The position numbers were made by a program, and so were the translations under genes. A stretch of 64,000 nucleotides of DNA from Porticoccaceae bacterium (GTDB lineage Bacteria > Pseudomonadota > Gammaproteobacteria > Pseudomonadales > Porticoccaceae), in the NCBI GenBank assembly GCA_018654575.1, contig JABILI010000004.1:1-64000 (forward strand). The letters are read 5' to 3'. The notes beneath the pieces are model-generated. The model did no database searches. It worked only from the letters and a program-made list of their open reading frames with translations, and was not told the origin of the DNA. Of the stretch, positions 12,629 through 64,000 are shown one piece after another. Numbering within the stretch: position 1 is the first letter of the stretch; each line of letters opens with the position of its first letter.

Positions 12629-12633
12629 AAAAG

Positions 12634-43335: not shown

Positions 43336-43403
43336 AAGGTACGTCTTGAACCCAATTCATATCATCTAGATAAGTACAGTGGTGTCCAAGAGAGGGCAAG
43401 CAT

Positions 43404-43775: not shown

Positions 43776-43782
43776 TTGCTCC

Positions 43783-43909: not shown

Positions 43910-43930
43910 ATTGTTACCGGGGAAAATGAA

Positions 43931-44527: not shown

Positions 44528-44698
44528 TCGGTCTAAAAGAATTAAGGAAAGCATATTAGACTTGTTTGGAAAAGGGTGTCATTAGGGAACTCTTTTTCTA
44601 TTCGACGAATAAATTACTTATGTTTCTGGAGTCATGTAAAATATATATCCGGTGTTCTGGCACGATCAGCTTAGTAAAACTCTAGATAAGGTGTACAG

Positions 44699-46675: not shown

Positions 46676-46757
46676 TCAGCCGGCAGTAGGGTAGTGCACG
46701 CGAGCTTGTACTATAATAGGCAGATTCCTTATCTGTTTCCTTTTAATATAATTAGCC

Positions 46758-48688: not shown

Positions 48689-48721
48689 CTTAACCATTGG
48701 TCTCGTTATTGGGGGCAGGTC

Positions 48722-49756
48722 ATGAACAAGCTATCTATTTCGCTTTTTGTAATATTACTAATTGTATGCCTAACTGGTTATTACTACTGGACAACCACAC
48801 CAGAATACTCGCTGAAACAAATTGCAACCGCGATCGAACAACATGATGTCGATACATTTGAAAAGCACGTCGATATCGAAAATTTTGTCGAGAGTGCAAT
48901 TGACCAATTTATGCTAGAGCAACTGTCTTCGGTCACTGATGCAAAAAGTAGTGGTTGGGAAAGTTTAGGAGCTGCGTTCGGTGCCGGTTTGATTGAAATG
49001 ATGAAACCAAAACTCGTTAGTTATGCCAAAAAGTCAATTATTCATTATGTTGAAACGGGAAATATTGATGATGATATTAATGTTAAGGAAGATGAAATAA
49101 CTATCGCAACCTTGACTAGCAGTATTGGTTTGGCCGATAAAAATAATTTAAATTTCAAAATAACCAAGAATGGCAAAGTAGCCATATTGAAAATACCTTA
49201 CCATAATGACGAGATTCAGACGGATATGGTAATCCAGATCACCATGCGAGACAAAGGTGGGTATTGGAGAATTATTGAAATCAAAAACTTGCAAGATATG
49301 CTCGCTCAAATCGAGTCGACTAAAGAGCAGCAATTGCTCGCTGCAAACCAGCCTATAAAAGACAAAATAGAAAAAACGATTACAGTACTGCAATTGCAAA
49401 AAACAAGTGTTGGCAAAAAATCTTGGGAAGAAAAAGTCCGTATTAGTATGGCGATTCGAAATGACCACTTACGTAACATTGTAGAAGTAAGCGGCGAGAT
49501 CGTGATTAAAGATAAAAGTGGTGAAGTAATAAAGTCATTACCTGTTACCGTTGAGACACCGATAAAAATTGGAACCGCTGAAATATTGAATTGGGAGATT
49601 GATATCAATCAGTTTAAAAGTGATGATGTCAAATTGTACAAGTTATCCAATAACGAAGTTGATATCGATTTTACAGCATCAAGAATTAAACTTGATAATG
49701 GTAATGAAATTAAACTATTTTCTGATTGGAACGAAATGAAATCCTATCAATTATAG
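48722..49756 (+). CDS. DUF2939-like membrane-anchored protein
   Basis: Protein of 344 residues with one N-terminal membrane helix (about 5-24, LFVILLIVCLTGYYYW) and a large outer domain. The segment YSLKQIATAIEQHDVDTFEKHVD matches the start of DUF2939, a family of unknown function; the C-terminal 120 residues look like a separate beta-rich domain (VRISMAIRNDHLRNIVEV). A GGGGGCAGG-like site precedes the ATG. It is the last intact gene of the element operon. Function unknown. Confidence 0.7.
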   Translation: MNKLSISLFVILLIVCLTGYYYWTTTPEYSLKQIATAIEQHDVDTFEKHVDIENFVESAIDQFMLEQLSSVTDAKSSGWESLGAAFGAGLIEMMKPKLVSYAKKSIIHYVETGNIDDDINVKEDEITIATLTSSIGLADKNNLNFKITKNGKVAILKIPYHNDEIQTDMVIQITMRDKGGYWRIIEIKNLQDMLAQIESTKEQQLLAANQPIKDKIEKTITVLQLQKTSVGKKSWEEKVRISMAIRNDHLRNIVEVSGEIVIKDKSGEVIKSLPVTVETPIKIGTAEILNWEIDINQFKSDDVKLYKLSNNEVDIDFTASRIKLDNGNEIKLFSDWNEMKSYQL

Positions 49757-50224
49757 GGGGATTTCGTTAGGAAAAGTTATTTTATTTGCTAGTTGAACAC
49801 TAGGAGATTAAAAAGAATCACTTATTGTGATTGGGTATTAAAAAGCACCGTTGATAAAATGACGGATGGCAAAATTATAGAAGCCTATACCCAATCATCT
49901 GATACATCTTCACTCTAGTATCAAAGGTTGTTGATTTGCATGCTCGTTTGACCCACTTATGATGGCACAAAGAACTGCTTATCTTTTCCTGTCTCCCAAA
50001 CATTAATCGTTTGCCAAAAACTCGGCCAAGGTCCGCGGTCAGAGCGATGCCGCCGTGTTTTAGGCTCCAAAATTCAGCCAAGCCAGGGCATTCGCGGCCG
50101 TCTGCGGCACGGGCCCCTAGAAAAAACAAGACTAGGCCAGCTAAAACTATTGTTGGTACTTCTGTTGGTACTTTTCTAGACAGATAGATAAAGGTATAGA
50201 TATATAAAGGGTCTTAGAGGCCTC
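49757..50224. other. right-end debris of the element
   Basis: 468 bases with no convincing gene. A minus-strand frame at 49875-50129 has no recognisable domain. A GATTGGGTAT/ATACCCAATC pair (about 49829 and 49889) is inverted over 50 bases. Two TGTTGGTAC words lie close to the right repeat. Confidence 0.5.
50151..50171. repeat. right pair of TGTTGGTAC words
   Basis: TGTTGGTAC occurs at 50151-50159 and 50163-50171, matching 43298-43306 exactly, about 55-75 bases inside the right repeat. Candidate arm-type integrase sites. Confidence 0.6.
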
Positions 50225-50249
50225 TTCGATTCCCGCCGCCTCCACCAAA
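50225..50249 (+). repeat. right attachment repeat
   Basis: Copy of the ssrA 3' end (TTC(G)ATTCCC...CCACCAAA), 24 of 25 bases identical to 43151-43175. The 5' half of the T-stem is missing, so it is not a second tmRNA or a tRNA. Confidence 0.9.
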
Positions 50250-50493: not shown

Positions 50494-51432
50494 TTACTTT
50501 TGGGTGAATTTTCGTAATGTTTTGGCAACCGCTGAAATAGCTTCTTTACCCTCATCAAGCACACCTGCTAAGGATACAAATGGATGGAACATTCCTGGAT
50601 ATTCTTGCAGGCTGACATCAATACCACTGGCCGTCAGGCGGTTGGCGTAGGCCACGCCCTCATCTCTTAATGTATCGTAGCCTGCAACTATAATTAATGT
50701 TGGTGGTAAGTGCGTCAGCTCTTTTGCTATAAGCGGAGCGTAACGAAAGTCTTCGCGATTTTTGTCTGAGACAATGTAGCTTTCATGAAACCAAAGCACT
50801 GTATCTCGCTCCAAAAAATAGCCTTTTGCAAAGGCAAGGTGCGACGAAGAATCCGCATGAGATGCTGTGGCTGGGTAGATCAACACTTGGCATTTGATAT
50901 TGGATATGCCCTGGTCTCTTGCCAGTATTGTGACCACGGCAGCTAAACTTCCTCCAGCACTGTCGCCACTGATAGCGATATTATTTTTATCCCCACCAAA
51001 AGTTTCAGCTTGCTGTAGCACCCACAACAAAGCGGTATAGGCATCATCTATTGCCGCTGGAAATTTATGCTCTGGCGCTAGACGGTAATCCACCGATACG
51101 ATGATACAGTCAGACTGCACACAGATTTGCCTACACAATGTGTCGTAGCCGTCTAGGGTGCCAATTACCATTCCCCCACCGTGATAAAAAATACATACAG
51201 GTAAGAGTGCCTGTGACTGCTTAGGCGAGTAAATACGTATTGGAATCGATAAGTTGTTTTGTTCAACAACGCGGTTTTCTACTGAAAAGACATCGACCCA
51301 CTGGGACGCGAAATATTTCGGCCTTGCAGCATAGGCTTCCCGTGCTTTCTCTGCCCCTAAAGCGCGCATAGGGGTTCTGTCTGAGGCGTTAATAATATCA
51401 AGGAATGCTTTGGCTTGCGGATGTAAGGGCAT
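50494..51432 (-). CDS. HSL-type alpha/beta-hydrolase (esterase)
   Basis: Carboxylesterase of 312 residues in the hormone-sensitive lipase family. The oxyanion motif HGGG is at 84-87, the nucleophile Ser158 in GDSAGGS, the acid in VAGYDTLRDEG and the base in GMFHPFVS. No signal peptide, so it is cytoplasmic. It could open an ester or lactone in the pathway. It is 16 bases downstream of an MFS gene in the minus arm of the catabolic cluster. Confidence 0.9.
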   Translation of the reverse strand: MPLHPQAKAFLDIINASDRTPMRALGAEKAREAYAARPKYFASQWVDVFSVENRVVEQNNLSIPIRIYSPKQSQALLPVCIFYHGGGMVIGTLDGYDTLCRQICVQSDCIIVSVDYRLAPEHKFPAAIDDAYTALLWVLQQAETFGGDKNNIAISGDSAGGSLAAVVTILARDQGISNIKCQVLIYPATASHADSSSHLAFAKGYFLERDTVLWFHESYIVSDKNREDFRYAPLIAKELTHLPPTLIIVAGYDTLRDEGVAYANRLTASGIDVSLQEYPGMFHPFVSLAGVLDEGKEAISAVAKTLRKFTQK

Positions 51433-51448
51433 GTTATATGTCTCTTGC

Positions 51449-52810
51449 TTAAGGACTAGTTAGTTCGGTGGGTTTCTGCTTGAGAGTACGCAGTTGTCGC
51501 ATTGCGTAAATCGACAATAACAGACCGATGGTGCAGGCGAAAATACCGACAATGGCCATTGAATAACGCAAGTCTGCTGGATCACGAAAAACATAATCGG
51601 TTAACACCGCCACAAGCGTTGGCCCTACGCCTAATCCTAGAATGTTGAGAGTAAATAGATAAAGGGCTGCTGCCTGTGCCCGCAGACGGTTAGGGGTAAT
51701 GTCATGAACTACCGCCATGGCAATCCCTAGAGGCAAACCATGGATAAATTTAATCACCGCGACAAGTCCCAGGGATACCCATGGGTTGTCTACCAGAGTC
51801 ACGGTGGCGGCAGGGATCAGCAGTGCCGCAAAAGCGATCACAGTTATGCGAACATGGGCTAAACCATCACCGCGACTCGCCCTAGCACTGGCTATTAGGC
51901 CGCCAGAAATTATCCCGGCTGGGGCGAATATCAAAACCACAGTGCCATAATATTTGCTCACTTGGAGCGTATCCCAGCCGTAGGTTCGAATAAAGAACGA
52001 CGGTGTCCATGCCGTCAGTGAATAAGAGTAGAGCGCGCCAAAGGCCATCGCTAGATAAAAACTCAGGTAAAAACCCTTGCGTTGTCTAAACCAATGCATA
52101 GCCTCGCCCATGGGTATGGTTTTTGGCGCACCTGACACTAGTCCTTGCCTAGCAGGCTCACGCAGTGCCATGACCAAAAAGAAGAACAGCAGGCCTGGGG
52201 AGCCTACGGCGATAAATGTTAATTGCCAACCGCGTAATTCGCCTACCCATGGGAGGGTGACTGTGCCTACATTGTCAAAAAACTCGATTACCTGTCCGCC
52301 CAGCAACATGGCTACACCCACACCTAGATAGATCCCCATGGTGTATACGCTCATGGCTTTGGCGCGCTTTTCCTCAGGAAAAGAATCAGAAATAAGTGAG
52401 TATGCAGCAGGTGACAGTGCTGCCTCGCCAGCCCCAACACCAATTCTTGCGGCAAATAAATGGCCAAAGTTTTTCGCCAAACCACAGGCCACTGTCATTG
52501 CACTCCAAAAAAGAACGCCCACCGCAATAATTGAACGCCGGCTTTTACTGTCAGCTAGGCGCGCAATTGGGATGCCCAGAAAAGTGTAAAAAACGGCAAA
52601 TGCCAAACCATATAAAAGGCTGATTTGTGTGTCGTTCAATAATAGGTCGCGCTTGATAGGTTCTATCAAAAGGACAATGACCGTGCGATCAAGAAATGAA
52701 AACATATAAAGCAGCATAAGCAGCAGAGTCATATACCAAGCATAAACAGGGCTGGGTCTCTCTGGTGTTACAACTGGGCTAGTGGTTTCTGGCATTGGTT
52801 CAACGTTCAT
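51449..52810 (-). CDS. MFS transporter, Spinster-like
   Basis: Twelve-helix permease of 453 residues with LLLYMFSFLDRTVIVLLIEP in helix 1 and the MFS loop GIPIARLADSKSRR. It is clearly paralogous to the permease at 61463-62878 (shared FLDR, LIEPIxRDL, GVGEAxLSPAxYSL, GIYLGxG). This subgroup is common in marine and sphingomonad catabolic clusters for hydrophobic substrates. Substrate unknown; uptake of the cluster's starting compound is the simplest idea. Confidence 0.9.
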   Translation of the reverse strand: MNVEPMPETTSPVVTPERPSPVYAWYMTLLLMLLYMFSFLDRTVIVLLIEPIKRDLLLNDTQISLLYGLAFAVFYTFLGIPIARLADSKSRRSIIAVGVLFWSAMTVACGLAKNFGHLFAARIGVGAGEAALSPAAYSLISDSFPEEKRAKAMSVYTMGIYLGVGVAMLLGGQVIEFFDNVGTVTLPWVGELRGWQLTFIAVGSPGLLFFFLVMALREPARQGLVSGAPKTIPMGEAMHWFRQRKGFYLSFYLAMAFGALYSYSLTAWTPSFFIRTYGWDTLQVSKYYGTVVLIFAPAGIISGGLIASARASRGDGLAHVRITVIAFAALLIPAATVTLVDNPWVSLGLVAVIKFIHGLPLGIAMAVVHDITPNRLRAQAAALYLFTLNILGLGVGPTLVAVLTDYVFRDPADLRYSMAIVGIFACTIGLLLSIYAMRQLRTLKQKPTELTSP

Positions 52811-52931
52811 TTTTATGACCTTTTTTATTGTACTTAATAGATCAAAGAGAAAACAATAAGAGTGTTACTATCTTGTCCTACATAGTTGTAGCGTTGGTTA
52901 GTGGATCAGAACTACGCTATAGGCAAGGGTA

Positions 52932-53690
52932 TTAGCCTGCAGTCCAGCCTCCGTCCACAAGTATGTGGGTGCCGGTGACCAGAGATGATGCAGCCGATGC
53001 CAAATAGAGGGCCGCACCCATTATGTCTTCCACCTCGCCCACACGGCTAAGCTTGATCTTGTCTTGGATCCATTTCAAACCTTCGGGATTATCTAATGTG
53101 GCTTGAGACAGGGGTGTACGAATAAAGGTCGGGCAGATGGTATTGATGCGGATACCCAATGGACCCCATTCAATAGCCATACTTTTGACCATGCCTTCCA
53201 GGGCATGCTTGGATGCGCAATAAACGCTGCGATGAGTGCCGCCAATGTGGCCCATTTGTGATGAAATATGAATGATTGATCCATCGATCTTAGCCGCTTT
53301 CATTAACTGTGCGGCGTAAATTGACAAGAAATAGGCTGACCGCAGATTAACGTCCATGACACTGTCAAAGTCCTCTGCTGAGGTTTCAAGAGCCGGCTTT
53401 TGCCGCGCCATTCCTGCGGAATTTATGACGATATCAAATGGCTGCTGCAGCGCAGTTTTCAATGCACCAAGATCCGTTTGATCTAGGGTTAATGCCTGTG
53501 CGTCTAATCCCTTTGCTGTTATTGCATCAACGGTTTGATTCAAACGGTCTGCACTGCGCGCAGCACAGACAACCGATGCACCTGCCTCTGCCATAGTCAC
53601 GGCACAGGCTTGACCGATCCCAGAGGATGCGCCGGTCACTAAGGCACGCTTGCCCTGTAGGGAGAAAGATGGGGTAGAGGGCAATATCAT
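52932..53690 (-). CDS. short-chain dehydrogenase/reductase
   Basis: Classical SDR of about 252 residues. Cofactor motif TGASSGIGQ at the N-terminus, NSAG near 90, catalytic Ser in HISSQMG and YCASK (Tyr and Lys), and the C-terminal VTGTHILVDGGW. The ATG at 53690 has GGAG seven bases upstream; a longer frame starting six codons earlier lacks a site. NAD(P)-linked oxidation of a secondary alcohol or reduction of a ketone in the pathway is likely. Confidence 0.92.
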   Translation of the reverse strand: MILPSTPSFSLQGKRALVTGASSGIGQACAVTMAEAGASVVCAARSADRLNQTVDAITAKGLDAQALTLDQTDLGALKTALQQPFDIVINSAGMARQKPALETSAEDFDSVMDVNLRSAYFLSIYAAQLMKAAKIDGSIIHISSQMGHIGGTHRSVYCASKHALEGMVKSMAIEWGPLGIRINTICPTFIRTPLSQATLDNPEGLKWIQDKIKLSRVGEVEDIMGAALYLASAASSLVTGTHILVDGGWTAG

Positions 53691-53803
53691 AATGTAGCTC
53701 CAACACAAAAATGCGCGGGGAACCTCTTCCCGACTTTGTTAAACGATCGCAAGCGACCAAAGGCGGTTGCGATCGTTGCACGGTTTTTTATTGCTAGATT
53801 CAT

Positions 53804-55132
53804 TTATTCAGTAACAGCGCGATAAGGGGCGCCTGTTCCGTATGGCACATCAATTCCGCCGTAGCGACGCACACGCATATTGCACTGCTCTGCATGACCG
53901 ACAAATCCTTCGAGCATGCATAAACGGCTACCGTATTCTCCAACCAAGGTTGCGGCCTCGTCGGTCATGATTTTTTGGTAGGAATGGGTCTTCAAAAACT
54001 TACCCACCCATAAGCCTCCTGTATAACGTCCGGCTTTTTTAGTGGGCAATGTATGGTTTGTTCCAATCACCTTATCGCCGTTGGAAACGTTAGTCCTTGG
54101 ACCAAGAAAAAGCGCGCCGTAACAGGTCATGTGTTCAAGGAACCAATCATCACGGGTGGTCATGACTTGGACGTGTTCCGATGCCATATCGTTTGCGACG
54201 GTCAACATCTCCTCATAGGTACCACATAAGATCACTTCGCCGTAATCAGCCCAGCTGACGGCCGCAGTGTCTGCCGTGGGTAAAATTTTCAGCAAGCGAT
54301 CAATTTCGCGCAACGTATCATCGGCAAGTTTGCGCGAGTTGGTCAGCAATACCGCGGGGCTGTTGTAACCATGTTCCGCCTGTCCTAATAAGTCTGTGGC
54401 GCAGAGTTCGCCGACGACGGTATCATCGGCTATCACCATTGTCTCAGTAGGGCCGGCGAACAAATCAATTCCAACACGACCAAACAGCTGCCGTTTGGCC
54501 TCAGCGACGAATGCGTTGCCCGGGCCAACAAGCATATGAACGGGCTTAATCGTTTCAGTCCCAATGGCCATTGCGCCAACGGCCTGAATACCGCCCATAA
54601 CGTAGATCTCGTGTGCACCACCAAGATGCATGGCAGCAATAACCGCCGCATTGGGTTTGCCCTTAAACGGCGGCGTGCAGGCTAGAATCCGTGGTACCCC
54701 AGCCACCGTGGCTGTGGCTACGGACATATGGGCGGATGCAACCATCGGAAACTTGCCACCGGGAACATAGCAACCAACGGATTGTACTGGGATATTTTTG
54801 TGACCCAAGATAACGCCCGGCAGGGTTTCTATTTCAATATCTAGCATGCTGTCACGCTGTGCTTGGGCAAAGTTTCGAACCTGCGCTTGGGCAAATTTGA
54901 TGTCGGCCAACTCACGCTCCGACAGCGATGCCATTAAGTCAGAAATCTCTTGCTCTGAAAGCTTAAAAGAGGGTGGCGTATAATTATCGAAGTTCGCAGA
55001 TAGTTCGCGCACCGCGACGTCGCCACGTAATTCAATATCTTTCAGGGTTGCCTCCACAACCGCCTTGGTCTTGGCATCATCTTCTGCACGTTCTGAGTTT
55101 GGTTTTCCGCGTTTAAGATATTGGACAGCCAT
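53804..55132 (-). CDS. HisD-family dehydrogenase, probably not histidinol-specific
   Basis: Histidinol-dehydrogenase-fold enzyme of 442 residues. All HisD zinc and catalytic residues have counterparts: Gln251 and His254 (GQAEH), Glu319-His320 (SEHVQ), Asp353 ([10 protein letters not shown]) and His413 (FVGHAEQ). Histidinol dehydrogenase oxidises an alcohol to an acid in two steps; relatives such as HpsN act on other substrates. No his genes are near, and the gene sits between an SDR and the P450-ferredoxin pair, so oxidation of a primary alcohol made by the P450 is a good inference. Confidence 0.87.
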
Positions 55133-55160
55133 GATTTTTGCCTTAATTTAGTGTGTGGCT

Positions 55161-55421
55161 CTATAGTGTTGTTGTTTTTGCTTCCCAGGATGCAAGGGCT
55201 ACTTTAATCTCATCGACACCCTGCATTACCTGGGCTTCAGTAGGTGAAAAATTGTCTTTGAGCATTTTTCTAGCCAACATGTGCTGCCCCGGCCGGTTTA
55301 TGTTTTCAACCGCGCACAGGAGCTTATCCAGGTAGTGATAAACAGCAAAGTTGCCATCAGCCGGATTACCGCTGACCAATCCGCTACACCTGTTTTCAGA
55401 GGGTCTGCCACCAGCTACCAC
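55161..55421 (-). CDS. small unknown protein
   Basis: A frame of 86 residues between ferredoxin and the HisD-like gene, overlapping the ferredoxin end by seven bases. The C-terminal half (MLARKMLKDNFSPTEAQVMQ) looks like a structured helical protein. I do not recognise the family. A later start is possible. Position and lack of shadows on this strand support a real gene, but it could be the tail of a lost larger one. Confidence 0.5.
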   Translation of the reverse strand: MVAGGRPSENRCSGLVSGNPADGNFAVYHYLDKLLCAVENINRPGQHMLARKMLKDNFSPTEAQVMQGVDEIKVALASWEAKTTTL

Positions 55422-55729
55422 GTGACTTTCATGCGGATACCGTCGAGCTCCTGGGAGGCAACGAGCTGACAGCTTAAACGACTGGTTGGTGTCCGCCCGG
55501 ACTCGACCATATCGAGCATCTCATTTTCCATGGCGAAAGGTTGGCCCGCCGCGACGCCGCTAGTCTCGTCAACTTCAACATGGCAGGTTGCACAGGCCAT
55601 GGAGCCACCACATTCGCCGTAAATGGATTCGATGTCATTGGCAATCGCCGCTTCCATCAGATTGACACCTTCTGCTACAGAGGCGTTGTGCTCAGTACCG
55701 TCTGGATACACCCAACAAACGTTGATCAT
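55415..55729 (-). CDS. 2Fe-2S ferredoxin
   Basis: Adrenodoxin/putidaredoxin-type ferredoxin of 104 residues, the usual electron donor to class I P450s. Cluster ligands are Cys40, Cys46, Cys49 (GECGGSMACATCH) and Cys87 (SRLSCQL). It follows the P450 stop by three bases. No ferredoxin reductase gene is seen in the window, so a reductase encoded elsewhere must supply electrons. Confidence 0.95.
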   Translation of the reverse strand: MINVCWVYPDGTEHNASVAEGVNLMEAAIANDIESIYGECGGSMACATCHVEVDETSGVAAGQPFAMENEMLDMVESGRTPTSRLSCQLVASQELDGIRMKVTW

Positions 55730-55732
55730 TAT

Positions 55733-57004
55733 TTATTCTCCTAAGTCTACTTTCAGTTTTACAGGGCCTCGAAAGCCCATGTTGAGCGGCCACTGGATTG
55801 TATCTTCCTCGTCTAGTCGCATGTTCGGATAACGCTGAGTCAACTCTTCGAGCAGAATTTTCATTTCCATGCGAGCCAGTGGCGCGCCCATACAAAAATG
55901 AATGCCGTTGCCAAAGGCCAGATGCTGTCGGGCATTCTTGCGCTCAACATCAAACTTCATCGGGCACTCAAAGGAGTCTTCATCATGATTCGCAGATACC
56001 AGTGACATCAGAATGGCAGACCCTTTGGGAATGGCGACGCCACCGATTTCAACATCGGTAAGAGTCAAGCGACGCCAGGTGATGAACGGGGTCATATAGC
56101 GCAACCCTTCCTCGACGGCATTGGGAATAAGTGCAGGGCTTTTCACCAGCTTTTGCCACTGTTCGCGGTCGCTGAGCAGCGCCCAGAGCAAACTCGCAGA
56201 GCCATTTGAGGTGGTCTCATGACCGGCGGCAAGCACACCGTGAATAAGGCTAGCCACCTCATTCATACTTAATACTTCATCATCCCCATTGCGCGTGCGC
56301 AACAGATGACTGACATAGTCATCGCCATCGAAGCCATTTGCTAAACCCGTCTTTAAACGCGAGTTGGCGACACTTTTACAGAAATCAAAATACTCCACTA
56401 ACCCACGGGCACCATCAATCGAATCCTCTTCTGTGGGCTTTCCCCAGGTCATATTAAAGGTGTTATCTGACCACTTTTTGACTCGGTAAGATTCTTCCTG
56501 TGGCACACCAACTAACAGAAACAACACTTTTGCCGGAAGCTCGTAAGTCACAGCCTCGACCAAATCGACGGCGTTCTTTCCCTCCAGAGTGGCGATCTGC
56601 TGTCGAGTAAGTTCACGGACTTGCGACTCATACTGGGCAAAGCGCTTTGTGTTCAGAAACTGCCCGGAGATATTGCGAATCCGAGTATGCTTGGGTCGGT
56701 CCGTATTTGCCTGGGTTGGCTCACGGGTATAGTGACCATCAACCATGATTTGCTGAACTTCTGATGAAAATGCGTTAATCGGGGATTGCGAATTACTGGC
56801 AGAAAAGCGGTCCGGGTCTCGGAAGATAGCCTGGATATCATTTTTTTTGGTAACAACCCAGCAGCTCAGCTCTTCATTGTAAAAAACCGGCTCACTCTCC
56901 CGAGCTTCTTTCAGGAACTCGAACATTCCATCTTGTTCATAGGGGCGAAAACGCTCGCCTAATTTGCCACTTGAAAAAGGGCAGGATTGCAGGTCTTTAG
57001 TCAT
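55733..57004 (-). CDS. cytochrome P450
   Basis: Soluble bacterial P450 of 423 residues. The haem ligand is Cys371 in FGNGIHFCMGAPLARME, the oxygen-activating helix reads AAGHETTS (259-266), and the ExxR motif is Glu299-Arg302 (EEGLRY). Ferredoxin follows three bases later. AAGAGGAAT precedes the ATG. It should hydroxylate a hydrophobic substrate, consistent with the terpenoid- or steroid-like setting, but the family number and substrate cannot be read. Confidence 0.95.
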   Translation of the reverse strand: MTKDLQSCPFSSGKLGERFRPYEQDGMFEFLKEARESEPVFYNEELSCWVVTKKNDIQAIFRDPDRFSASNSQSPINAFSSEVQQIMVDGHYTREPTQANTDRPKHTRIRNISGQFLNTKRFAQYESQVRELTRQQIATLEGKNAVDLVEAVTYELPAKVLFLLVGVPQEESYRVKKWSDNTFNMTWGKPTEEDSIDGARGLVEYFDFCKSVANSRLKTGLANGFDGDDYVSHLLRTRNGDDEVLSMNEVASLIHGVLAAGHETTSNGSASLLWALLSDREQWQKLVKSPALIPNAVEEGLRYMTPFITWRRLTLTDVEIGGVAIPKGSAILMSLVSANHDEDSFECPMKFDVERKNARQHLAFGNGIHFCMGAPLARMEMKILLEELTQRYPNMRLDEEDTIQWPLNMGFRGPVKLKVDLGE

Positions 57005-57018
57005 TGTTTTTATTCCTC

Positions 57019-57510
57019 TTAAGGTTGACGGTTCTCGGCAAGCAGGGAATTATCGTAATCCATACCGACAATCCACTCTCCGGCGACCAATGATCTCGAT
57101 GTCGAATAGCGGTTTAACTCAGCGATCAGCCCAGCCATATCTTGTGCAGGCCCAACAGGTGGCGACGCGATATTCTCGATCTCTGAGACACGAGTATGAA
57201 ATGCCGCATGGCCGTGTGCATCAATAAAACTCGGTAGCAGTGCAGACTCACCTATATGAACGAGTTCGTCTTCTTCTCCAGTCCAATGACGTTTTTCACC
57301 AACAAAGACGATCGCCCCATCTTTCACGGCGACAAAATCAGTGGGCCTGGCCTGGTCACTAAAGGCAATAATGTTGCTGCCAAAAAAAGCGATGTCAGCC
57401 TTAAGACTTTCTGTCGGCACCGACGCCGGTTCAGGAGTAGAGCTACCACAGCCAACACTAAGGATGATTATTATCAGTAGACTTGTATGCTGTATCTTTG
57501 AACGGTTCAA
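57019..57510 (-). pseudogene. truncated lipoprotein amidohydrolase (YtcJ-like)
   Basis: The likely start is a TTG at 57510 with a perfect AGGAG eight bases upstream (57519-57523), giving LNRSKIQHTSLLIIIILSVG followed by the lipobox cysteine. The mature part has an N-terminal amidohydrolase strand region (VAVKDGAIVFVGE, LLPSFIDAHGHAAFH with the HxH metal motif), then stops at LLAENRQP. Family members are about 550 residues, so the C-terminal two-thirds is missing. It ends 15 bases before the P450 start, and a deletion between them is likely. Confidence 0.75.
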
Positions 57511-57535
57511 AGTCGCTACTCCTGAATTCTGACGG

Positions 57536-58747
57536 TTAATGAATTCTAACGACCATGGCGGCGCCAGCACCAGCGGCGCCGGATATAGCGATGAGTCCAG
57601 TATGCTTTTTTCGGCGCTCCAATTCATCGATCATCATGCCTAGAATATTAACGCCTGTTGCGCCCATTGCATGGCCCATGGCGATGCCGCCGCCATTGAC
57701 GTTGTAACGGTCCAAAGGCACATCAAGTTGCTTAGCAAAATTCATCGCCGTTGCCGCAAATCCCTCATTGAATTCCCACAAGTCTATATCTTCTCCAGCT
57801 ATCCCCGTGCGTTCAAGCACGTCTTTGGCTGCGGCATAGCCTCCCGTCAATCCTTCAATTGCGGCAGCGCTCTTAGCAGAGAAGCCAATAATTTCCGCTC
57901 GTACTGGCAGGCCCAAACTAGCTGCCATTTCACCAGTAGCAAGTAGCGCCAGTGATGCGCCGTCGACCATCCCCGGAGAGTTCCCTGGGTGGTGGTGGTG
58001 AGGGATATGGTCAACCTCTGGGAAGCTTTTACAGAGTAGTTCGTCAGACCCTTGCGCACCTAAAGCCTCAAAAGAAGGGTTGAGTCTAGCCATACTTTCA
58101 ATTGATGAGCCTGGGCGAATTAATTCATCGTCACTTAACAATACGTCCCCAAGTTCATTCTTGACGGGAACTAGAGAGCGCTTGAAGTAACCTTTTTCTG
58201 TAGCCAGTGCCGCTTTGTTGTGGGATGCCGCAGCATAGGCATCCAGCTCTTCTCGTGAGTATCCTTGCTGACCGGCGATAAAATCTGCTGTCACACCGTT
58301 GGGGATAAAGGGCACCTTAGATGAGACATCCGGATCGGTGAATAGAGGGCCTCGGTCCGACAGAATAGGGACTCTAGACATGGATTCTACTCCGCCAACC
58401 ACATAGAGCTCACCTTGGCCTGAAAGCAGTTTGGCTGCAGCCATAGAGCAGGCGGTAACACTGGAAGTACAAAAACTGTTGACTGTCGTCCCTGAACCTC
58501 GCGTTTCCCAGCCGGCGTAGAGCGCGGCGGTGTGTGCTATGTTGCCGCCCTGATCATTCAATTGCCCGACGCAACCTAAGATAACCTCGTCGACTTTGGA
58601 TGGATCAATAGCCGTTCTATTTCTCATCTCATCGAACAGAGTTTTCAATAAATCAACTGGTTTAACCTGATGTAGCGCGCCTTTAGGGCTTCCTTTGCCG
58701 CGCGGAATACGAATAGCTTCGAGTACAAAAACACCCATTGTTGACAC
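57536..58747 (-). CDS. thiolase (acetyl-CoA acyltransferase family)
   Basis: Thiolase of 403 residues. The acyl-accepting Cys93 is in VNSFCTSSVTAC, and the GHAMGATG histidine motif is present near residue 355. The C-terminal catalytic cysteine position (usual C-x-G) is serine here: Ser389 in IAISGAAGAG. It lies 12 bases after the oxygenase gene. Beta-oxidation-like thiolysis of a side chain is likely, if the Ser variant is active; otherwise a condensing or binding role is possible. Confidence 0.87.
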   Translation of the reverse strand: MSTMGVFVLEAIRIPRGKGSPKGALHQVKPVDLLKTLFDEMRNRTAIDPSKVDEVILGCVGQLNDQGGNIAHTAALYAGWETRGSGTTVNSFCTSSVTACSMAAAKLLSGQGELYVVGGVESMSRVPILSDRGPLFTDPDVSSKVPFIPNGVTADFIAGQQGYSREELDAYAAASHNKAALATEKGYFKRSLVPVKNELGDVLLSDDELIRPGSSIESMARLNPSFEALGAQGSDELLCKSFPEVDHIPHHHHPGNSPGMVDGASLALLATGEMAASLGLPVRAEIIGFSAKSAAAIEGLTGGYAAAKDVLERTGIAGEDIDLWEFNEGFAATAMNFAKQLDVPLDRYNVNGGGIAMGHAMGATGVNILGMMIDELERRKKHTGLIAISGAAGAGAAMVVRIH

Positions 58748-58759
58748 TCCTATGAAAAG

Positions 58760-60247
58760 TTAAGGCGCAGTCTTATTGCGCTGATTGCGTTCTTGAGCTT
58801 CGCGGATATCGCTGCCGCGGCCCCAGTATGCATGTGATCCAAAGGGCACCCACTGAGGCAGTTGCACTCGGGCTATCGGGCCTTCTGAGACTTTTTTGGC
58901 ATCCCAGATGTAAACTTCAGTTTCCTTCTTGTCGCCAACGTAGGCGATTAAATAGCCATCGTCTTCGTCTTTTGAATCAGCCCTTGGCGCAAATACAGGC
59001 TGCTGCATAAATTTACCCTCAGGCAGTATATACCTATCGGTTTCCCGCATTTTTTGGTAATCAAACTTTTGAATACCGTTGTGCAAGAAGAAAGGGATCT
59101 CAGGGACTAATGCGTTGTAGGAATAGCGGTTCTTTATACCCAAGTATGCAGAGTTGATTCCGGGAGACTCTGCGCAGCTGTCGTCAATAATGCGCTCGCT
59201 AGCCTCTCCAGTCTTCAAGTTGAATCTATATTCGGTTAGGCGCGGCTGGGTGATATGGTAGGAAAGAAAATAGTTTTGTATCTTTACTCTTGACGTGCCT
59301 GCTGGAACCATGGGTAAGGGGTTGAGCTGTTTGTAGGCATAGGCAATGATACAGTCGTCTTCTTCATAAGCATTCACAGTATGCAAGATGTACGTTGGCT
59401 CACATTCAAACCAGACTACATCAGCGCCTTTACCGTAGCGAGGTATAACGCCGAATCGTGACGCCTTAGTCTGATCAAATAGCAGCTTCTTCTTTTTTTG
59501 TAGCAGTAGTTCAGGATCCCAAAATAGTGGCAAGTCATGGACTATGGTGTGGTTTTCGGTGATCCAGCAGTCGTGGGGTAGGCGAGGGCCGGGAAGCGCA
59601 ATGTCAGTAGCGCAAATCAGTTTATTATTTTTGTCGACAACCCCGTACTGCATATAGGGTTCTTCCTGAAAGCTGTAATTGAAGAACAAAAATTCTCCGG
59701 TACGCTCGTCAACTTTTGAATGGGCAGAAACTCCCTTGACCCAATCGCCACTGAAGTCCTCTGCGCCAATTGTGTGAAAGTCGACAGGATCCAGCCTGTA
59801 AGGCTTACCACAACGAGAAAACATGGTTTTGAATTCGCCATTATGAAGAAGGACATCTGTACCGGAATTATTTTTTAGGCCATCTTCAGCTTGAAACCCA
59901 TCGCGCAAGCCAGGATACAAGCCTTCGCCCGCTTCCTGTTCCTTTAAATAACCCTCAGTCATCACCATACGGTTTCTATAGTCAGCCTGGCCCTGCTTAA
60001 AAGCCACCCCATGGACCATGCCATCTCCATCAAACCAGTGATAGCGACCGCTGATTGAATGTTCAATAGGGTTGTGGGAGTTACGAATATAAACCCCATC
60101 AAGATCCGATGGAATTTGCCCTACTACCTTAAGGTCGATTGCCGTTATTTCCTTGTCGACAGGACCATGATAGCTATCGTGCAGATAGTCGTTTCCCTCT
60201 TCGGTCATTTTCAAAGTCAGCGAGTTGTGAATTATTACACTATCCAT
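58760..60247 (-). CDS. carotenoid-cleavage-oxygenase-family dioxygenase
   Basis: Non-haem iron oxygenase of 495 residues in the RPE65/lignostilbene-dioxygenase family, which splits conjugated or stilbene-type double bonds. The four iron histidines are His176 (SAHSK), His225 (PHDCWIT), His289 (ILHTV) and His472 (GSHAYW). YIRNSHNP and YHWFDGDGMVHG mark the N-terminal blades. Start at ATG 60247, with GAGGA eight bases upstream; an ATG five codons earlier overlaps that site. First gene of the minus arm, so perhaps the first step. Substrate could be an apocarotenoid, stilbene or isoprenoid. Confidence 0.92.
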   Translation of the reverse strand: MDSVIIHNSLTLKMTEEGNDYLHDSYHGPVDKEITAIDLKVVGQIPSDLDGVYIRNSHNPIEHSISGRYHWFDGDGMVHGVAFKQGQADYRNRMVMTEGYLKEQEAGEGLYPGLRDGFQAEDGLKNNSGTDVLLHNGEFKTMFSRCGKPYRLDPVDFHTIGAEDFSGDWVKGVSAHSKVDERTGEFLFFNYSFQEEPYMQYGVVDKNNKLICATDIALPGPRLPHDCWITENHTIVHDLPLFWDPELLLQKKKKLLFDQTKASRFGVIPRYGKGADVVWFECEPTYILHTVNAYEEDDCIIAYAYKQLNPLPMVPAGTSRVKIQNYFLSYHITQPRLTEYRFNLKTGEASERIIDDSCAESPGINSAYLGIKNRYSYNALVPEIPFFLHNGIQKFDYQKMRETDRYILPEGKFMQQPVFAPRADSKDEDDGYLIAYVGDKKETEVYIWDAKKVSEGPIARVQLPQWVPFGSHAYWGRGSDIREAQERNQRNKTAP

Positions 60248-60323
60248 AATGCGGGTCCTCATTAGATGTTAGACTACAGTGGGTTTGACTTGTTGTTCAC
60301 ATGTCTTAGAGCTATGGTAAAGT

Positions 60324-60339
60324 AACTTCATTAATAATA
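60324..60339. promoter_or_regulatory. shared motif upstream of the regulator gene
   Basis: AACTTCATTAATAATA ends 33 bases before the regulator ATG and lies in the divergent gap to the oxygenase. It matches 14 of 16 bases of 61414-61429, which is placed at the same distance from the next gene. Confidence 0.4.
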
Positions 60340-60372
60340 CTAGCTATTCATAAACATACGTAGGGATAGAAA

Positions 60373-61269
60373 ATGACTCCGGCACGCAAAAATATTAGCG
60401 CTTTTGAGATTATGGGAGACTACTGGAGCCTGCTGATCGTTCGGGAGTTAATGTATGGGGCATCCAGTTGGTCGGCCTTCAGCGCAGTGATTTCAATACC
60501 CCCGTCCACTCTGAGTAATCGGCTTGCAAAGCTTGTTGCTGCAGGTTGTGTGGTAAAAAGTGAGCAGCCAAAGCGTGCTAAAGGAACGTATAAGCTGACT
60601 GAGGCGGGTAAGGGGTTGTTTCCAATTCTCATTGTAGCCAGAGAGTGGCAGCTGCGGTGGGACTTGCGTCCTGGAGCCTTTGTTTCTCCCTGGGTGCATG
60701 AATGTGGGGCGCCTTTGCATTGCAAGACCACCTGCATGGCCTGTTACGGGGAGGTTCTATCCCAGGATATTCTCTTTAAAGGAGAGGCCCTTGCGCATGA
60801 GCATGGGGGTACATTGAACCACAGGACGAGCAATAAAATTAATGTCGATCTTCGCACTAGTAACGCAAAAATAGCAAAAATCACAATTTTCTTGGGGGAT
60901 CAGAAGGCCCTGAAAGTTATGGATGCTCTTCTTCGGGGGTATAATCGTTTCGATCACATTCAAAAATGGACAGGATTGCACCCAGCTGTTTTGTCTGCGC
61001 GCCTTCGCAAGCTGCAGCTCCTTGATCTCTGTGTTACCCGTCTGTATCAAGATCTTCCTGATCGGTTTCTGTACATCACAAGTGACGCGGGAAAAGAGCT
61101 GATTGGCTTGATAGTGCAGCTTATGGAGTGGGATGCTGGTGCGAAAGGCGCCGGCTCGGCTCGGGCTCTGTTGCACCATAAGCCCTGCAGTCACGCACTG
61201 AAGGTTGCGCTGATATGTCGCGCCTGCGAAGGCCATATAACCTATGAGAACACTTCAGTTAACCTCTAG
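60373..61269 (+). CDS. double HxlR-type transcriptional regulator with zinc ribbons
   Basis: Protein of 298 residues containing two HxlR-like winged-helix domains in tandem. The first, about 8-95, has MGDYWSLLIVRELMYG and SNRLAKLVAAG; the second, about 175-255, has LKVMDALLRGYNRFDHIQ and SARLRKLQLL. Each is followed by a His/Cys cluster that could bind zinc: His109, Cys111, Cys117, Cys121, Cys124, and His269, Cys272, Cys282, Cys285. HxlR proteins normally have one domain and dimerise; this one may act as a monomer. It lies between the two arms and is the likely pathway regulator. Confidence 0.83.
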   Translation: MTPARKNISAFEIMGDYWSLLIVRELMYGASSWSAFSAVISIPPSTLSNRLAKLVAAGCVVKSEQPKRAKGTYKLTEAGKGLFPILIVAREWQLRWDLRPGAFVSPWVHECGAPLHCKTTCMACYGEVLSQDILFKGEALAHEHGGTLNHRTSNKINVDLRTSNAKIAKITIFLGDQKALKVMDALLRGYNRFDHIQKWTGLHPAVLSARLRKLQLLDLCVTRLYQDLPDRFLYITSDAGKELIGLIVQLMEWDAGAKGAGSARALLHHKPCSHALKVALICRACEGHITYENTSVNL

Positions 61270-61413
61270 GCTCCCACTCTAAGCCCTGAAAAAGCACCTT
61301 CTTCTCTCTTCGCTAGCTGGCCTGCTGGCGGAGTTGGCGCACCTGTCTTTTTGCCGCTTTTAACCCGTTTGGATGAAGCTTCAGTTAACATCTCTCTAAA
61401 ATAATAGTTGACC

Positions 61414-61429
61414 AACTTCACTTATAATA
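61414..61429. promoter_or_regulatory. shared motif upstream of the second MFS gene
   Basis: AACTTCACTTATAATA ends 33 bases before the TTG start of the MFS gene and includes TATAAT. It matches the copy upstream of the regulator gene at 14 of 16 positions. Confidence 0.4.
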
Positions 61430-61462
61430 GTTAAATGTTGAAAAATAAAGGGGTAAATTCGG

Positions 61463-62878
61463 TTGCCAAAAAGCAAAAAAGACAATAATTCTGCAGCTGG
61501 CTATGGTTCTAGTGACGGACAAAGCTCGGCTAATCTAGTGGCCTTTTGGTTGATGCTAGCCTACTGCCTCTCTTTTCTAGATCGTCAATTACTGGTGTTA
61601 ATGATTGAACCAATCCAGCGTGATTTAGGTATCAGCGACACAATGTTCAGTCTGTTACACGGAGCTTCTTTTGCTTTGTTCTACACCATAACGGGACTAT
61701 TTCTTGGCAAGATTGTTGATACTAAGAGCCGTGTCAAAATAATCGCTTTTTCAGTTTTCTTATGGAGTTTGGCTACCGCAGTAAGCGGCATCTCTCGCAG
61801 CTTCTTTCAGTTGTTTTTGGCGCGTATGTTTGTCGGTGTTGGCGAAGCAGGCCTGTCGCCAGCAACCTATTCGCTACTTGGGGATCTATTTGATGCCAAG
61901 AAGCGCTCATTGGCATTTGCTATTTATGGTGCAGGCATCTATCTGGGTACTGGTCTTGCCTTTCTGCTTGGCGGGAAATTGGTAGGCTATCTTTCGGGCC
62001 TACCACCTACGGATCTACCCTTTTTGGGAGAGATATACAGTTGGCAAATAGCATTTTTTGTCTTTGCCGCGCCAGGTATTTTTCTGTCAATACTATTCTA
62101 TTTTTTCGTTGCCGAACCTGTCAGGGGAGGGCAAGAAAACACAGCCAATCTCAGTGCGCCTGCTAAAGAAGCAGCTCCAGTAAGCTTTACGGCGTTCTTA
62201 CGCCACTATCGCGCGAATCTAACACCTTATCTTGGCCATAATCTTGGTTATGGCTTGCACATGATGTTTAGCTACTCATTCCTGGCCTGGACGCCTGCAA
62301 TGCTGATGCGAGTGCATGGCCTAGAGATTGGTGAAGTCGGTCTGTATATCGGCTTATGTCTGCTTATTTGCGGGCCTGGGGGTAGTTTTGCAGGCGCTGC
62401 GCTGTCTAATTACTTTGCTAAACGCGGCGTTTCAGACGCCCAATTGCGGATTAGTGCCATAGGTTCATTGCTACTTGGCCTTTTTGGAGCCTTGTCAGCT
62501 GGCCTAGACGATACCCAGTTGTCAATCGCTGCTGCTGCTGCTGCTATTTTCTTTATGGGGCTGCCTGCAGGACTCAATGGCGCTACTCTACAGACTATTA
62601 CACCGCCCCATTTTAGAGGTCAGGCGGGCGCGTCCTTTATGTTGATTGGTAATATTTTGGGGCTAGGCTGTGGGCCACTTTTGGTCGCTCTATTAACAGA
62701 CTATGTGTTCATGGACCAATCTATGGTTCATTACTCGTTGCAAGTCTTTGCATTGACGACAATGCCGCTATCGGCAATTTTACTTTGGAGGGTGAGGCGC
62801 TACTTCGCCATTGGAAATCCTGCTAATAATGCAGATCTAACTGTCGCAACAATTGATGGCAGTGGGGCGCAGCTATGA
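61463..62878 (+). CDS. MFS transporter, Spinster-like
   Basis: Permease of 471 residues with twelve helices and FLDRQLLVLMIEPIQRDLG in helix 1, paralogous to the MFS protein at 51449-52810. The start is a TTG at 61463 behind AAAGGGG; no ATG gives a full helix 1. Its TGA overlaps the next ATG by ATGA, so it is coupled to the acyl-CoA synthetase. Two related permeases in one cluster suggest two substrates, or import plus export. Confidence 0.88.
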   Translation: MPKSKKDNNSAAGYGSSDGQSSANLVAFWLMLAYCLSFLDRQLLVLMIEPIQRDLGISDTMFSLLHGASFALFYTITGLFLGKIVDTKSRVKIIAFSVFLWSLATAVSGISRSFFQLFLARMFVGVGEAGLSPATYSLLGDLFDAKKRSLAFAIYGAGIYLGTGLAFLLGGKLVGYLSGLPPTDLPFLGEIYSWQIAFFVFAAPGIFLSILFYFFVAEPVRGGQENTANLSAPAKEAAPVSFTAFLRHYRANLTPYLGHNLGYGLHMMFSYSFLAWTPAMLMRVHGLEIGEVGLYIGLCLLICGPGGSFAGAALSNYFAKRGVSDAQLRISAIGSLLLGLFGALSAGLDDTQLSIAAAAAAIFFMGLPAGLNGATLQTITPPHFRGQAGASFMLIGNILGLGCGPLLVALLTDYVFMDQSMVHYSLQVFALTTMPLSAILLWRVRRYFAIGNPANNADLTVATIDGSGAQL

Positions 62879-64000
62879 TCTTCGCCTCAAAGGACAGGAT
62901 AGAGTCATGCACAGCTAAAGGCTGGTGGGGTAGTGAGACTTTAGATCAGCTGTTTCTCAGAAATGTGGCCAATAACCCTGATCGTACCGCAGTGGTAGAT
63001 CCCGATAACCGTGGGGAAATAACCCATGGAAAAAACCAACGCCTAACCTATCGTGAATTGAATCGAAAGGTCACAGAGGCCGCCGAGGAGTTGATAAAGC
63101 GTGGCGTTATAAAAGATGACATTGTTGTATTTCAGCTTCCCAATATTCATGAAAGTATTTTGATGCTCTTGGCCTGTAGCCGCGTCGGCGCCTTAGCAAG
63201 TCCTATTCTCGTTGACTTCTCTGACCACGAGCTTGAACAAATCCTCGGTCATTTGCAACCGAAAATATTTGTCACCGTTAACCGATTTAAAAAACGCCAT
63301 CTTTTGGCTGATGCGAAACCCATTTGTCAAAAGTATGAGGTTATCTGTATATCTGTGGAGGACTTAGATCAATCTTTTTCCGAGTCTCAATTAGAGGCTG
63401 CTGAAAAAACTATCGCCTCCCATCAGCTGGGTCATGCATTAACCGCTAACGATGTGAACACTCTTTGCTGGACATCGGGCACCGAAGGGTTTCCAAAGGC
63501 CGTAATGCGAACGCATAACCAATGGATGGTTACTGGAAGAGCAATGACCGATAGCGCGTCTATTCGCGATGGCGACGTTATCCTTAATGCTCGACCGCTG
63601 GTGAATATGGCTGCTATAGGCGGTGGACTTTATTCTTGGCTAATCTGTGGTGGCTCTTTTGTGCTGCATCACCCGCTCAGTATACCGCTGGTGCTTGAGC
63701 AGCTTAAGCGTGAAAAGGTCACCCTGACCTTTATGCCCCCTGCCTTTATTATTAGCCTACTGCAAGATCCGGTAGTACGTCAGCAAGCAGACCTAAGGAG
63801 TTTGCGTACTATGGGTTCTGGCTCTGCCGCGATACCTGGCTGGGCGATCGAAAATATGAAAAGCGAATACGACATTGATGTGATCAATTTCTTCGGATCC
63901 AACGAAGGTATTTCGTTACAGAGTAATGTACTTACGGTACCAGACCCAACACTGCGCGCTACCTATTTTCCGCGACTAGGTCGCAGTGAGTTTAATTGGC
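62875..64000 (+). CDS. acyl-CoA synthetase (AMP-forming), 3' end missing
   Basis: The frame starts at ATG 62875, overlapping the MFS stop (ATGA), and stays open to the window edge: 375 codons are visible. The AMP-binding motif TSGTEGFPKAV is present, as are the N-terminal DQLFLRNVANNPDRTAVV and NFFGSNEG, typical of the ANL superfamily. It would activate a carboxylic acid to its CoA ester, matching the HisD-like and thiolase genes of the other arm. The C-terminal domain lies outside the window. Confidence 0.9.
   Translation, partial: MIFASKDRIESCTAKGWWGSETLDQLFLRNVANNPDRTAVVDPDNRGEITHGKNQRLTYRELNRKVTEAAEELIKRGVIKDDIVVFQLPNIHESILMLLACSRVGALASPILVDFSDHELEQILGHLQPKIFVTVNRFKKRHLLADAKPICQKYEVICISVEDLDQSFSESQLEAAEKTIASHQLGHALTANDVNTLCWTSGTEGFPKAVMRTHNQWMVTGRAMTDSASIRDGDVILNARPLVNMAAIGGGLYSWLICGGSFVLHHPLSIPLVLEQLKREKVTLTFMPPAFIISLLQDPVVRQQADLRSLRTMGSGSAAIPGWAIENMKSEYDIDVINFFGSNEGISLQSNVLTVPDPTLRATYFPRLGRSEFNW

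Follow-up and report, generated by a model that had tools for sequence, protein, structure and literature searches.

An ssrA-integrated genomic island of a Porticoccaceae bacterium carries a putative catabolic gene cluster with carotenoid oxygenases of altered iron-site residues

We analysed the first 64,000 bases (the window) of contig JABILI010000004.1 from a Porticoccaceae bacterium (assembly GCA_018654575.1); the contig itself reaches position 78,854. At the right end of the window lies a divergent gene cluster centred on an HxlR regulator and encoding, among others, a carotenoid oxygenase (CCO1), a cytochrome P450, a HisD-like dehydrogenase, a thiolase and an acyl-CoA ligase (Table 1). 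This cluster is the cargo of a genomic island integrated at ssrA, a 25.4-kb segment (contig 50248-75684) that extends 11.7 kb beyond the right edge of the window. Judged from alignments, its most novel element is the iron site of its carotenoid oxygenases. A first-pass annotation had described one catabolic pathway for a hydrophobic compound. Open reading frame (ORF) and domain searches recovered every gene it named at the positions it gave, and the contig does run on past the right edge, as it had anticipated, from an NMO-like gene to an XRE regulator. That reading caught the nature of the cluster but not its extent: the pathway reaches further to the right, and the unit is the island.

The island is delimited by exact copies of the 18-bp 3' end of ssrA, of which a given 18-mer is expected by chance in about 2e-6 copies on the contig. 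The copies bound two tandem segments, and the second coincides exactly with the catabolic cluster, whose outermost genes are those of the esterase and the XRE regulator. A truncated integrase that retains the arm domain adjoins ssrA, not directly the border of the catabolic segment. In a near-identical genome, G682, ssrA is followed by a frame of at least 233 aa that is 82% identical to the integrase remnant and runs off the contig. Three other relatives have 416-aa frames after ssrA or after a second att copy, with 31-32% similarity to the integrase arm domain (a likeness drawn from sequence similarity). Extra att copies occur in several relatives, two or three in some. A 1119-base query covering the ssrA region matched 34 of 50 genomes, several only in part. 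In the 21 other genomes of the genus with a whole-gene ssrA match, the match ends at bases 392-407; in G682 it reaches base 983. A later 67-bp match lies on a different contig of genome G681. The sequence after ssrA differs among relatives, with integrase-like frames or other genes in those that we read, and the island's hydrolase ABH1 is found at E<=1e-60 in 3 of 112 genomes of the family (the window's own genome G000, the sister species G262 and G682). Islands integrated at ssrA with P4-type integrases are a known class. The island shares with them direct repeats of the ssrA 3' end and tandem att copies; at ssrA it has an arm-domain remnant of an integrase, and it differs in its cargo and in this truncation of the integrase.

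ssrA appears to be an integration hot spot in the genus, with differing cargo (window 42782-43775, loci L258-L265). One such locus, L259 after ssrA of genome G202, holds a catabolic-looking block at 3818-12786 with frames that, named by eye, resemble a Rieske-type oxygenase, a reductase and a FAD monooxygenase.

By tblastn, the core of the cluster consists of the HxlR regulator, the acyl-CoA ligase, an NMO/FabK-like enzyme (NMO), the short-chain dehydrogenase SDR2, the aldehyde dehydrogenase ALDH, ABH1, the carotenoid oxygenase (CCO) and the thiolase. The full core recurs in a Halieaceae metagenome-assembled genome (MAG; locus L109) and on the plasmids pRW412b of Sphingopyxis granuli RW412 (L209), pRK1-2 of Cupriavidus basilensis (L210) and pENH92 of C. 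necator NH9 (L211). A Sphingopyxis MAG (L110) has the core except HxlR within the stretch compared. Over these loci, identities are 53-59% for SDR2, 62-65% for ALDH, 60-65% for ABH1, 49-56% for NMO, 39-54% for the ligase, 41-58% for the thiolase and 44-65% for the oxygenase (to CCO1). The enzymes of the plasmid clusters, whose records carry product-name annotation only, span 39-65%, and HxlR is 29-39% identical there. Homologues of the permease MFS2 and the TonB receptor TBDR1 are present in L109, L110 and L209. The Cupriavidus loci gave no tblastn match to MFS2 at threshold; they have annotated MFS genes, and porins with a TTT binding protein in place of the TonB receptor. At the thresholds used, P450, ferredoxin, HisD and the hormone-sensitive-lipase-type (HSL) esterase were absent from L109, L110 and L209-L211; an 83-aa piece of a P450 lies at the end of L109. 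In the Sphingopyxis clusters a VanA-type Rieske oxygenase stands where the window has the P450, and other plasmid clusters have neither.

Linkage of the core to this oxygenase subfamily was seen more widely. HxlR accompanies the oxygenase in 48 of 80 subfamily loci from named genomes, in 13 of 16 more, and in 0 of 20 outgroup loci. In the named genomes two thiolase types each occur in 39 of 80 loci, NMO in 25 and the ligase in 22, whereas none of HxlR, thiolase, ligase and NMO was found in the 20 loci of other CCOs. At least one of these four lies within about 5.5 kb in 60 of the 71 full-length trimmed loci and in 76 of 96 overall. Because only a small number of outgroup loci were available, all of the same order and about 11 kb in length except for two shorter ones, the comparison tests linkage and is not a corrected statistic. 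All locus counts were taken from tblastn tables, ORF picking being unreliable in GC-rich loci (shadow ORFs). Relatives of CCO1 at E<=1e-20 occur in 76 of 293 genomes of the order; at E<=1e-125 over 398 genomes of the phylum, CCO1 recovered only itself. The first-pass claim of a divergent, HxlR-centred catabolic cluster, probably for a hydrophobic compound, thus stands, as the same core is found in further proteobacterial classes. No characterised homologue of the cluster was found, nor, in agreement with the same annotation, any described pathway with this gene set in the open-licence literature searched.

The window's genome holds a second cassette on contig C83 (L038, 4134-11785), with a CCO, HxlR, NMO, ligase and thiolases of the PRK06289 and PRK08242 types, close to a gene resembling pyruvate dehydrogenase E1. 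Other genomes have cassettes of this sort too.

The AlphaFold model of CCO1 has a mean predicted local distance difference test score of 93.3, and the 50 matches listed by Foldseek are CCO-family structures, the best solved one being CCD1 of Osmanthus fragrans (7vud/9luz/9m6z; template modelling score by query 0.84 for 9m6z and 7vud). Three papers place four histidines at the CCO iron centre, with an outer-sphere carboxylate bonded to each of three of these (PMC8191317, PMC12051055, PMC6060882). Mapped by alignment, all four histidines are kept in CCO1 (H181, H230, H294 and H477), whereas only E365 is kept of the three carboxylates, with R150 and Q421 at the other positions. One of these carboxylates, beside the position of Lys-134 of the lignostilbene dioxygenase (LSD) LSD4, is lost from all 113 subfamily sequences, which instead have Gln (78), Asn (14), Arg (9), Leu (6), Met (4), Ile (1) or His (1). 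Of 22 CCOs from outside the subfamily but within the same order, 21 have Glu in that column and the remaining row has it one column off. A second carboxylate is Gln throughout the CCO1 branch (5 of 5: window, G262, L109, L110 and L209, with the L110 and L209 oxygenases identical in the tree). The second carotenoid oxygenase of the island, CCO2, has Glu for the first iron-binding His in G000 and G262 (L003 12632-14155); its nearest plasmid relatives keep His. In a 71-row quick tree with the trait columns removed, loss of the carboxylate maps to one branch with 99% support in the Shimodaira-Hasegawa-like approximate likelihood ratio test (SH-aLRT). This tree took in 46 of the 113 subfamily rows. 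The rows compared were CCO matches of at least 400 aligned query residues and outgroup matches of at least 250. By record titles, the subfamily is present in several phyla, in marine, soil and freshwater bacteria. Among the CCO matches dropped for falling short of 400 residues is a fragment resembling CCO1 (69% identity) in L178, parts of which are masked.

CCD1 shares the fold and the four iron-binding histidines with CCO1 but is only 30-32% identical to it and retains a Glu where CCO1 has Arg150; relative to CCD1, the subfamily has one extra residue just before the replaced-carboxylate position. Lignostilbene dioxygenases (LSD4, LsdA, NOV1 and the P. brassicacearum LSD) likewise share the fold, the four histidines and an occluding Thr. 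They differ from the subfamily at two adjoining positions in 113 of 113 sequences: the equivalent of Lys-134 is missing and that of Glu-135 is replaced. At the former, which in LSDs is the 4-hydroxyl-binding Lys, CCO1 has Ser and all 113 sequences have Y, S, W or F. The one LSD included in the tree falls outside the subfamily clade. Tyr-101, which also binds the 4-hydroxyl in LSDs, was considered as a further LSD marker and dropped, as its column was unsure and its spacing to the Lys differs from that in LSD4.

Papers on carotenoid oxygenases treat the centre of four histidines and three carboxylates as common to the whole CCO family, to which the subfamily would be a widespread natural exception. 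We found no description of a natural replacement of an outer-sphere carboxylate in the open-licence literature searched. PDB titles record Glu150Asp and Glu150Gln mutants made in Synechocystis ACO. We take Glu150 to be the equivalent of the residue replaced in the subfamily, and its mutants were reportedly found impaired by Sui et al. in 2016. A natural set of enzymes without the carboxylate lets its role be asked directly, as well as whether these enzymes do other chemistry. One speculative proposal, which we hold rather doubtful, is that the subfamily runs a remodelled iron site of four histidines and two carboxylates (one carboxylate in the CCO1 branch; three histidines and a Glu in CCO2), tied to a cassette of HxlR, thiolase, ligase and FMN enzyme. 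It might then perform a reaction other than alkene dioxygenation or act on polar or acid substrates, as part of a new catabolic pathway moving between bacterial classes on islands and plasmids.

The HisD-like protein passes the cut-off of TIGR00069 and scores 384 bits to CpHpsN (8v35) versus 214 to HisD (1k75); its identification as a histidinol dehydrogenase was rejected because the HpsN score is far above the HisD score. Residues aligned with the zinc ligands and with Glu318, His319 and Asp352 are kept, as in HpsN, the 3-dehydrogenase of 2,3-dihydroxypropane-1-sulfonate (DHPS). According to PMC11382572, His126 recognises the sulfonate and tells HpsN from HisD. This signature residue is Met in the window protein, and its gene neighbours differ from those of HpsN. 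Among the 37 rows printed, window included (23 distinct genes), the His126 position is Met or Leu in 36 and His in one. From the alignment, HisD-like proteins with Met or Leu at this position appear to form a third group within the family of HisD and HpsN. Loci of this kind (L079-L095 and L098) carry a GGKFPM or GGKYPL motif, without His126 except in L095, and often an SDR1-like neighbour; L073 falls outside the motif survey, having no match to the motif pattern. At three HisD-like loci the neighbours are ABC transporter parts, SnoaL, cupin, a LacI regulator and Meth_synt_2.

The first-pass annotation had proposed the oxygenase, P450 and HisD-like genes as a trio, a unit that the comparisons do not bear out in that form. 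HisD and SDR1 were found in 0 of 96 subfamily-oxygenase-centred loci at the thresholds used, and the HSL esterase in 1 of 96. Conversely, an SDR1 homologue occurs in 13 of 18 HisD-centred loci and 17 of the 18 are without any core gene (HisD is present in all 18 by construction; two of the 20 loci, L096 and L097, belong to P450 relatives and were left out of this count). Homologues of MFS1 or MFS2 occur in 0 of 18 HisD loci at threshold and in 4 of 96 oxygenase loci. One locus breaks this pattern. In L085 (genome G164, contig C483, 3-4209; 4.5 kb), NMO, HisD (68%) and a partial SDR1 (48%) share a strand and diverge from a subfamily CCO that has Leu at the altered carboxylate position. The genome is of another family (f9) and listed with 6% contamination, but the link stands on a single contig. 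Because L085 ties NMO, HisD and SDR1 to a subfamily CCO, recruitment of the pair into such pathways is plausible, and the view of it as a plain unrelated neighbour, which we first favoured, is weakened. We put the chance that the pair serves the core pathway at about even.

The P450 is nearly private to the genus. Among solved structures it is closest to 5gwe, which we take to be CreJ, and to CYP116B-like chains, with matches that span almost all of the protein. Matches at E<=1e-70 occur in 4 of 293 genomes of the order; only G000 and G262 exceed 40% identity, and the next best in the order is 37% among the matches listed. Unlike those relatives, it is stand-alone, with its own ferredoxin, a missing reductase and a link to a CCO operon. 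The ferredoxin and P450 frames are open, and by eye their key motifs look normal. Among solved structures the NMO-like protein scores highest, and nearly equally, with a FabK-type enoyl reductase (84.6 bits) and with a putative nitroalkane dioxygenase (83.7 bits). In the thiolase family the nucleophile Cys and the His are kept in 41 of 41 sequences and the second Cys in 14 of 41.

Two close relatives record part of the history of the cluster. G682 is near-identical over 9.4 kb at 99% on contig C78 and 16.4 kb at 99% on C49, with the same gene order. Because of this order a chimeric assembly is unlikely, and a chimera at the junction of ferredoxin and HisD was rejected on the same junction in G682; the two genomes are so nearly identical that they may share a source. 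The two cluster contigs of G682 overlap inside CCO1, and its ssrA lies on a third. Its proteins are 97-100% identical to those of the window, with no further breaks save the contig end inside CCO1, and the amidohydrolase remnant and the P450 are likewise present. The sister species G262 shares the arm of CCO1 (96%), P450 (95%) and ferredoxin. Between its thiolase and P450 genes lies one for an amidohydrolase of 575 aa, and the 5' part of this gene is all that the window retains (about 1.26 kb is absent; the alignments overlap by 3 bp at 57026-57028). After the ferredoxin, G262 has a ferredoxin reductase that has left no trace in the window, and no close orthologue of it was found elsewhere in the window's genome (best 39%). 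Left of 55379, where the HisD block of the window starts, G262 gave no syntenic match; its contig C30 holds paralogues that resemble HisD and SDR.

Taken together, we observed the gene identities, the limits of the island, a conserved core from which the HisD pair is usually missing, and the residue changes; from these we infer each reaction, the order of reactions and the substrate class. We lean, with modest confidence, towards the view that the island encodes a route for taking up and oxidising a hydrophobic compound that bears an alkene and is perhaps ester-linked, in the following order. The compound would cross the outer membrane through the TonB receptor and the inner membrane through MFS2, and ABH1 would open an ester or similar linkage. 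A monooxygenase that can be exchanged for another (P450 with ferredoxin here, the VanA-type Rieske enzyme in Sphingopyxis) would hydroxylate or demethylate it, and SDR2 would oxidise an alcohol. With O2, CCO1 would split a C=C bond into two carbonyls; ALDH would produce an acid and the ligase the CoA ester; NMO might adjust a double bond, the thiolase would remove acetyl-CoA and HxlR would sense the substrate. The HisD-like/SDR1 pair may be an accessory recruited from other loci that takes an alcohol side product to the acid. The gene set also provides a definite pathway on mobile DNA that can be put to the test, and its plasmid carriers in Sphingopyxis and Cupriavidus are hosts in which the substrate might be sought.

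Several points weigh against this route. The dioxygenase activity of CCO1 is an assumption, since residues regarded as conserved are missing from its iron site as aligned, and the substrate was assigned from family resemblance. No enoyl-CoA hydratase or acyl-CoA dehydrogenase was seen among the island's genes, leaving the CoA part incomplete. Of the 80 subfamily loci from named genomes, 2 hold SDR2 and ALDH and 7 hold ABH1; the full core is therefore one variant of a looser cassette. The control loci are few and phylogenetically non-independent. Cluster and ssrA are on separate contigs in G682, so insertion at ssrA is shown only in G000. Finally, the lost neighbouring reductase and the truncated amidohydrolase may mean that the island is partly decayed. 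Full decay, with the cluster a relic no longer working as a unit, would also suit the truncated integrase and the altered iron ligand of CCO2; we regard it as unlikely, since the other frames are open, the HisD catalytic residues, thiolase nucleophile and CCO1 histidines are kept, and the G682 proteins show no additional breaks.

Which genes belong to the route, and for what substrate, was weighed against four further readings or restrictions of it. That a single pathway takes in every gene from esterase to ligase, HisD and P450 included, is suggested by the nine minus-strand genes (remnant counted) that run head to tail in one att-bounded island with gaps of 3-282 bp, by their identical order in G682, by the independent link in L085, from an unrelated family, and by the resemblance of MFS1 to permeases of CCO clusters. 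Against it stand the near-complete separation of HisD and SDR1 from the core in both locus sets, the lack of a HisD orthologue in G262 (the best is a 64% paralogue on another contig), and the ferredoxin reductase of G262 standing where the HisD block begins, exactly at the widest, 282-bp gap. Because of L085 we raised this reading from unlikely to somewhat short of an even chance, and lowered the preferred route very slightly. Of the earlier claim of a single pathway, the conserved core survives and L085 speaks in its favour; the P450 and the HisD pair are accessories and not a conserved trio. Likewise, core genes co-occur in relatives, whereas HisD, SDR1, HSL and P450 largely do not. A sulfonate (DHPS) pathway in the HisD block (HpsN, SDR and MFS, cf. 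hpsRNOUPsuyAB) would fit the closeness of the protein to HpsN and the clustering of HpsN with dehydrogenases and an MFS carrier in C. pinatubonensis, reported in PMC11382572. The Met at the His126 position speaks against it, as does the absence from the genome of any GD_AH_C-family protein, presumably the family of SuyB; on both grounds we rejected this reading as very improbable.

As to substrate, a core specific for carotenoids or apocarotenoids is a possibility that we rate below even. Osmanthus CCD1 is the best match of CCO1 in sequence and fold, the best NCBIfam model is the apo-carotenoid 13,14-cleaving dioxygenase, a TonB receptor suits a bulky substrate, and the subfamily is spread over phyla and habitats. 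Yet the identity to CCD1 is low, the NCBIfam score (235 bits) is far below the cut-off of 675, an outer-sphere Glu is replaced, and no ionone- or carotenoid-specific partner was recognised. Degradation of lignostilbene-, isoeugenol- or vinylguaiacol-like aromatics seems improbable. The CCO fold does include lignostilbene dioxygenases, Sphingopyxis clusters have the VanA-type enzyme, two bacterial CCOs convert isoeugenol and 4-vinylguaiacol (PMC6700365), and the occluding Thr, described as invariable in the stilbenoid clade in PMC12051055, is kept in 113 of 113 sequences. However, Lys-134 of lignostilbene dioxygenases (PMC8191317) is absent in all 113, CCO1 scores 243 bits to plant CCD1 versus 105-135 to bacterial LSDs, and the single LSD structure in the tree lies across the 99%-supported branch; these comparisons were made with LSDs. 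The phenylpropanoid-like substrate of the first-pass annotation is accordingly disfavoured in the lignostilbene sense, and we favour an apocarotenoid-like or other hydrophobic alkene.

Table 1. Features of the island and its flank, in contig coordinates; the window ends at 64,000.
Feature	Position	Strand	Evidence or remark
ssrA (tmRNA), integration site, tag ANDDNYALAA	42782..43173	+	ARAGORN; Rfam RF00023 208.8 bits
att copy 1, ssrA 3'-terminal 18 bp (TTCCCGCCGCCTCCACCA)	43156..43173	+	exact search of contig
First tandem att-bounded segment, outside catabolic cluster	43174..50247	.	TonB receptor, PepSY membrane protein, DUF2939 protein
Integrase remnant, 123 aa, N-terminal arm domain only	43404..43775	+	Arm-DNA-bind_3 4.4e-23
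att copy 2, left border of catabolic island	50230..50247	+	exact search of contig
HSL-type esterase, LipP1 family; accessory block	50494..51432	-	NF058653 356.8 bits, cut-off 350
MFS permease 1 (MFS1), paralogue of MFS2	51449..52810	-	42% to MFS2 of G262
SDR1, usual partner of HisD-like gene	52932..53690	-	homologue in 13/18 HisD loci
HisD/HpsN-family alcohol dehydrogenase, HpsN signature His126 = Met	53804..55132	-	bit scores, alignment, motif survey
2Fe-2S ferredoxin (Fdx)	55415..55729	-	Fer2 domain; 96% in G262
Cytochrome P450	55733..57004	-	5gwe 285 bits; 95% in G262
Truncated Amidohydro_3 gene, 5' remnant, start approximate	57019..~57522	-	575-aa full-length orthologue in G262
Thiolase, core gene	57536..58747	-	nucleophile Cys and His kept; second Cys = Ser
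CCO1, RPE65/carotenoid-oxygenase family, core gene	58760..60262	-	PF03055 1.8e-115; AlphaFold model
Two-domain HxlR regulator at divergent centre, core gene	60373..61269	+	domain search
MFS permease 2 (MFS2)	61463..62878	+	93% G262; 49% L109 and L209
Acyl-CoA ligase, core gene	62875..64000	+	ends at contig 64584, beyond window; 39-54% in L109, L110, L209-L211
NMO-like	64584-65543	plus arm	beyond window
SDR2	65543-66322	plus arm	beyond window
ALDH	66313-67833	plus arm	beyond window
Alpha/beta hydrolase ABH1	67826-68626	plus arm	beyond window
TonB receptor (TBDR1)	68601-70805	plus arm	beyond window
SDR3	70927-71700	plus arm	beyond window
Alpha/beta hydrolase ABH2	71804-72598	plus arm	beyond window
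Second carotenoid oxygenase CCO2	72632-74155	plus arm	beyond window
Alpha/beta hydrolase ABH3	74124-74882	plus arm	beyond window
XRE regulator	74879-75205	plus arm	beyond window
att copy 3, right border	75667-75684	same orientation	beyond window; exact search of contig

A promoter scan found 10 candidates, no more than in shuffled sequence (mean 14.6), and a terminator scan found 19 versus 12.7 in shuffles (standard deviation 4.2). By eye, the amidohydrolase remnant carries a lipoprotein signal. Beside the left att copy, the stretch 50394-50494 of the window looks, again by eye, like the leftover end of an MFS gene, with an 88% copy in G682 (C49:47489-47728).

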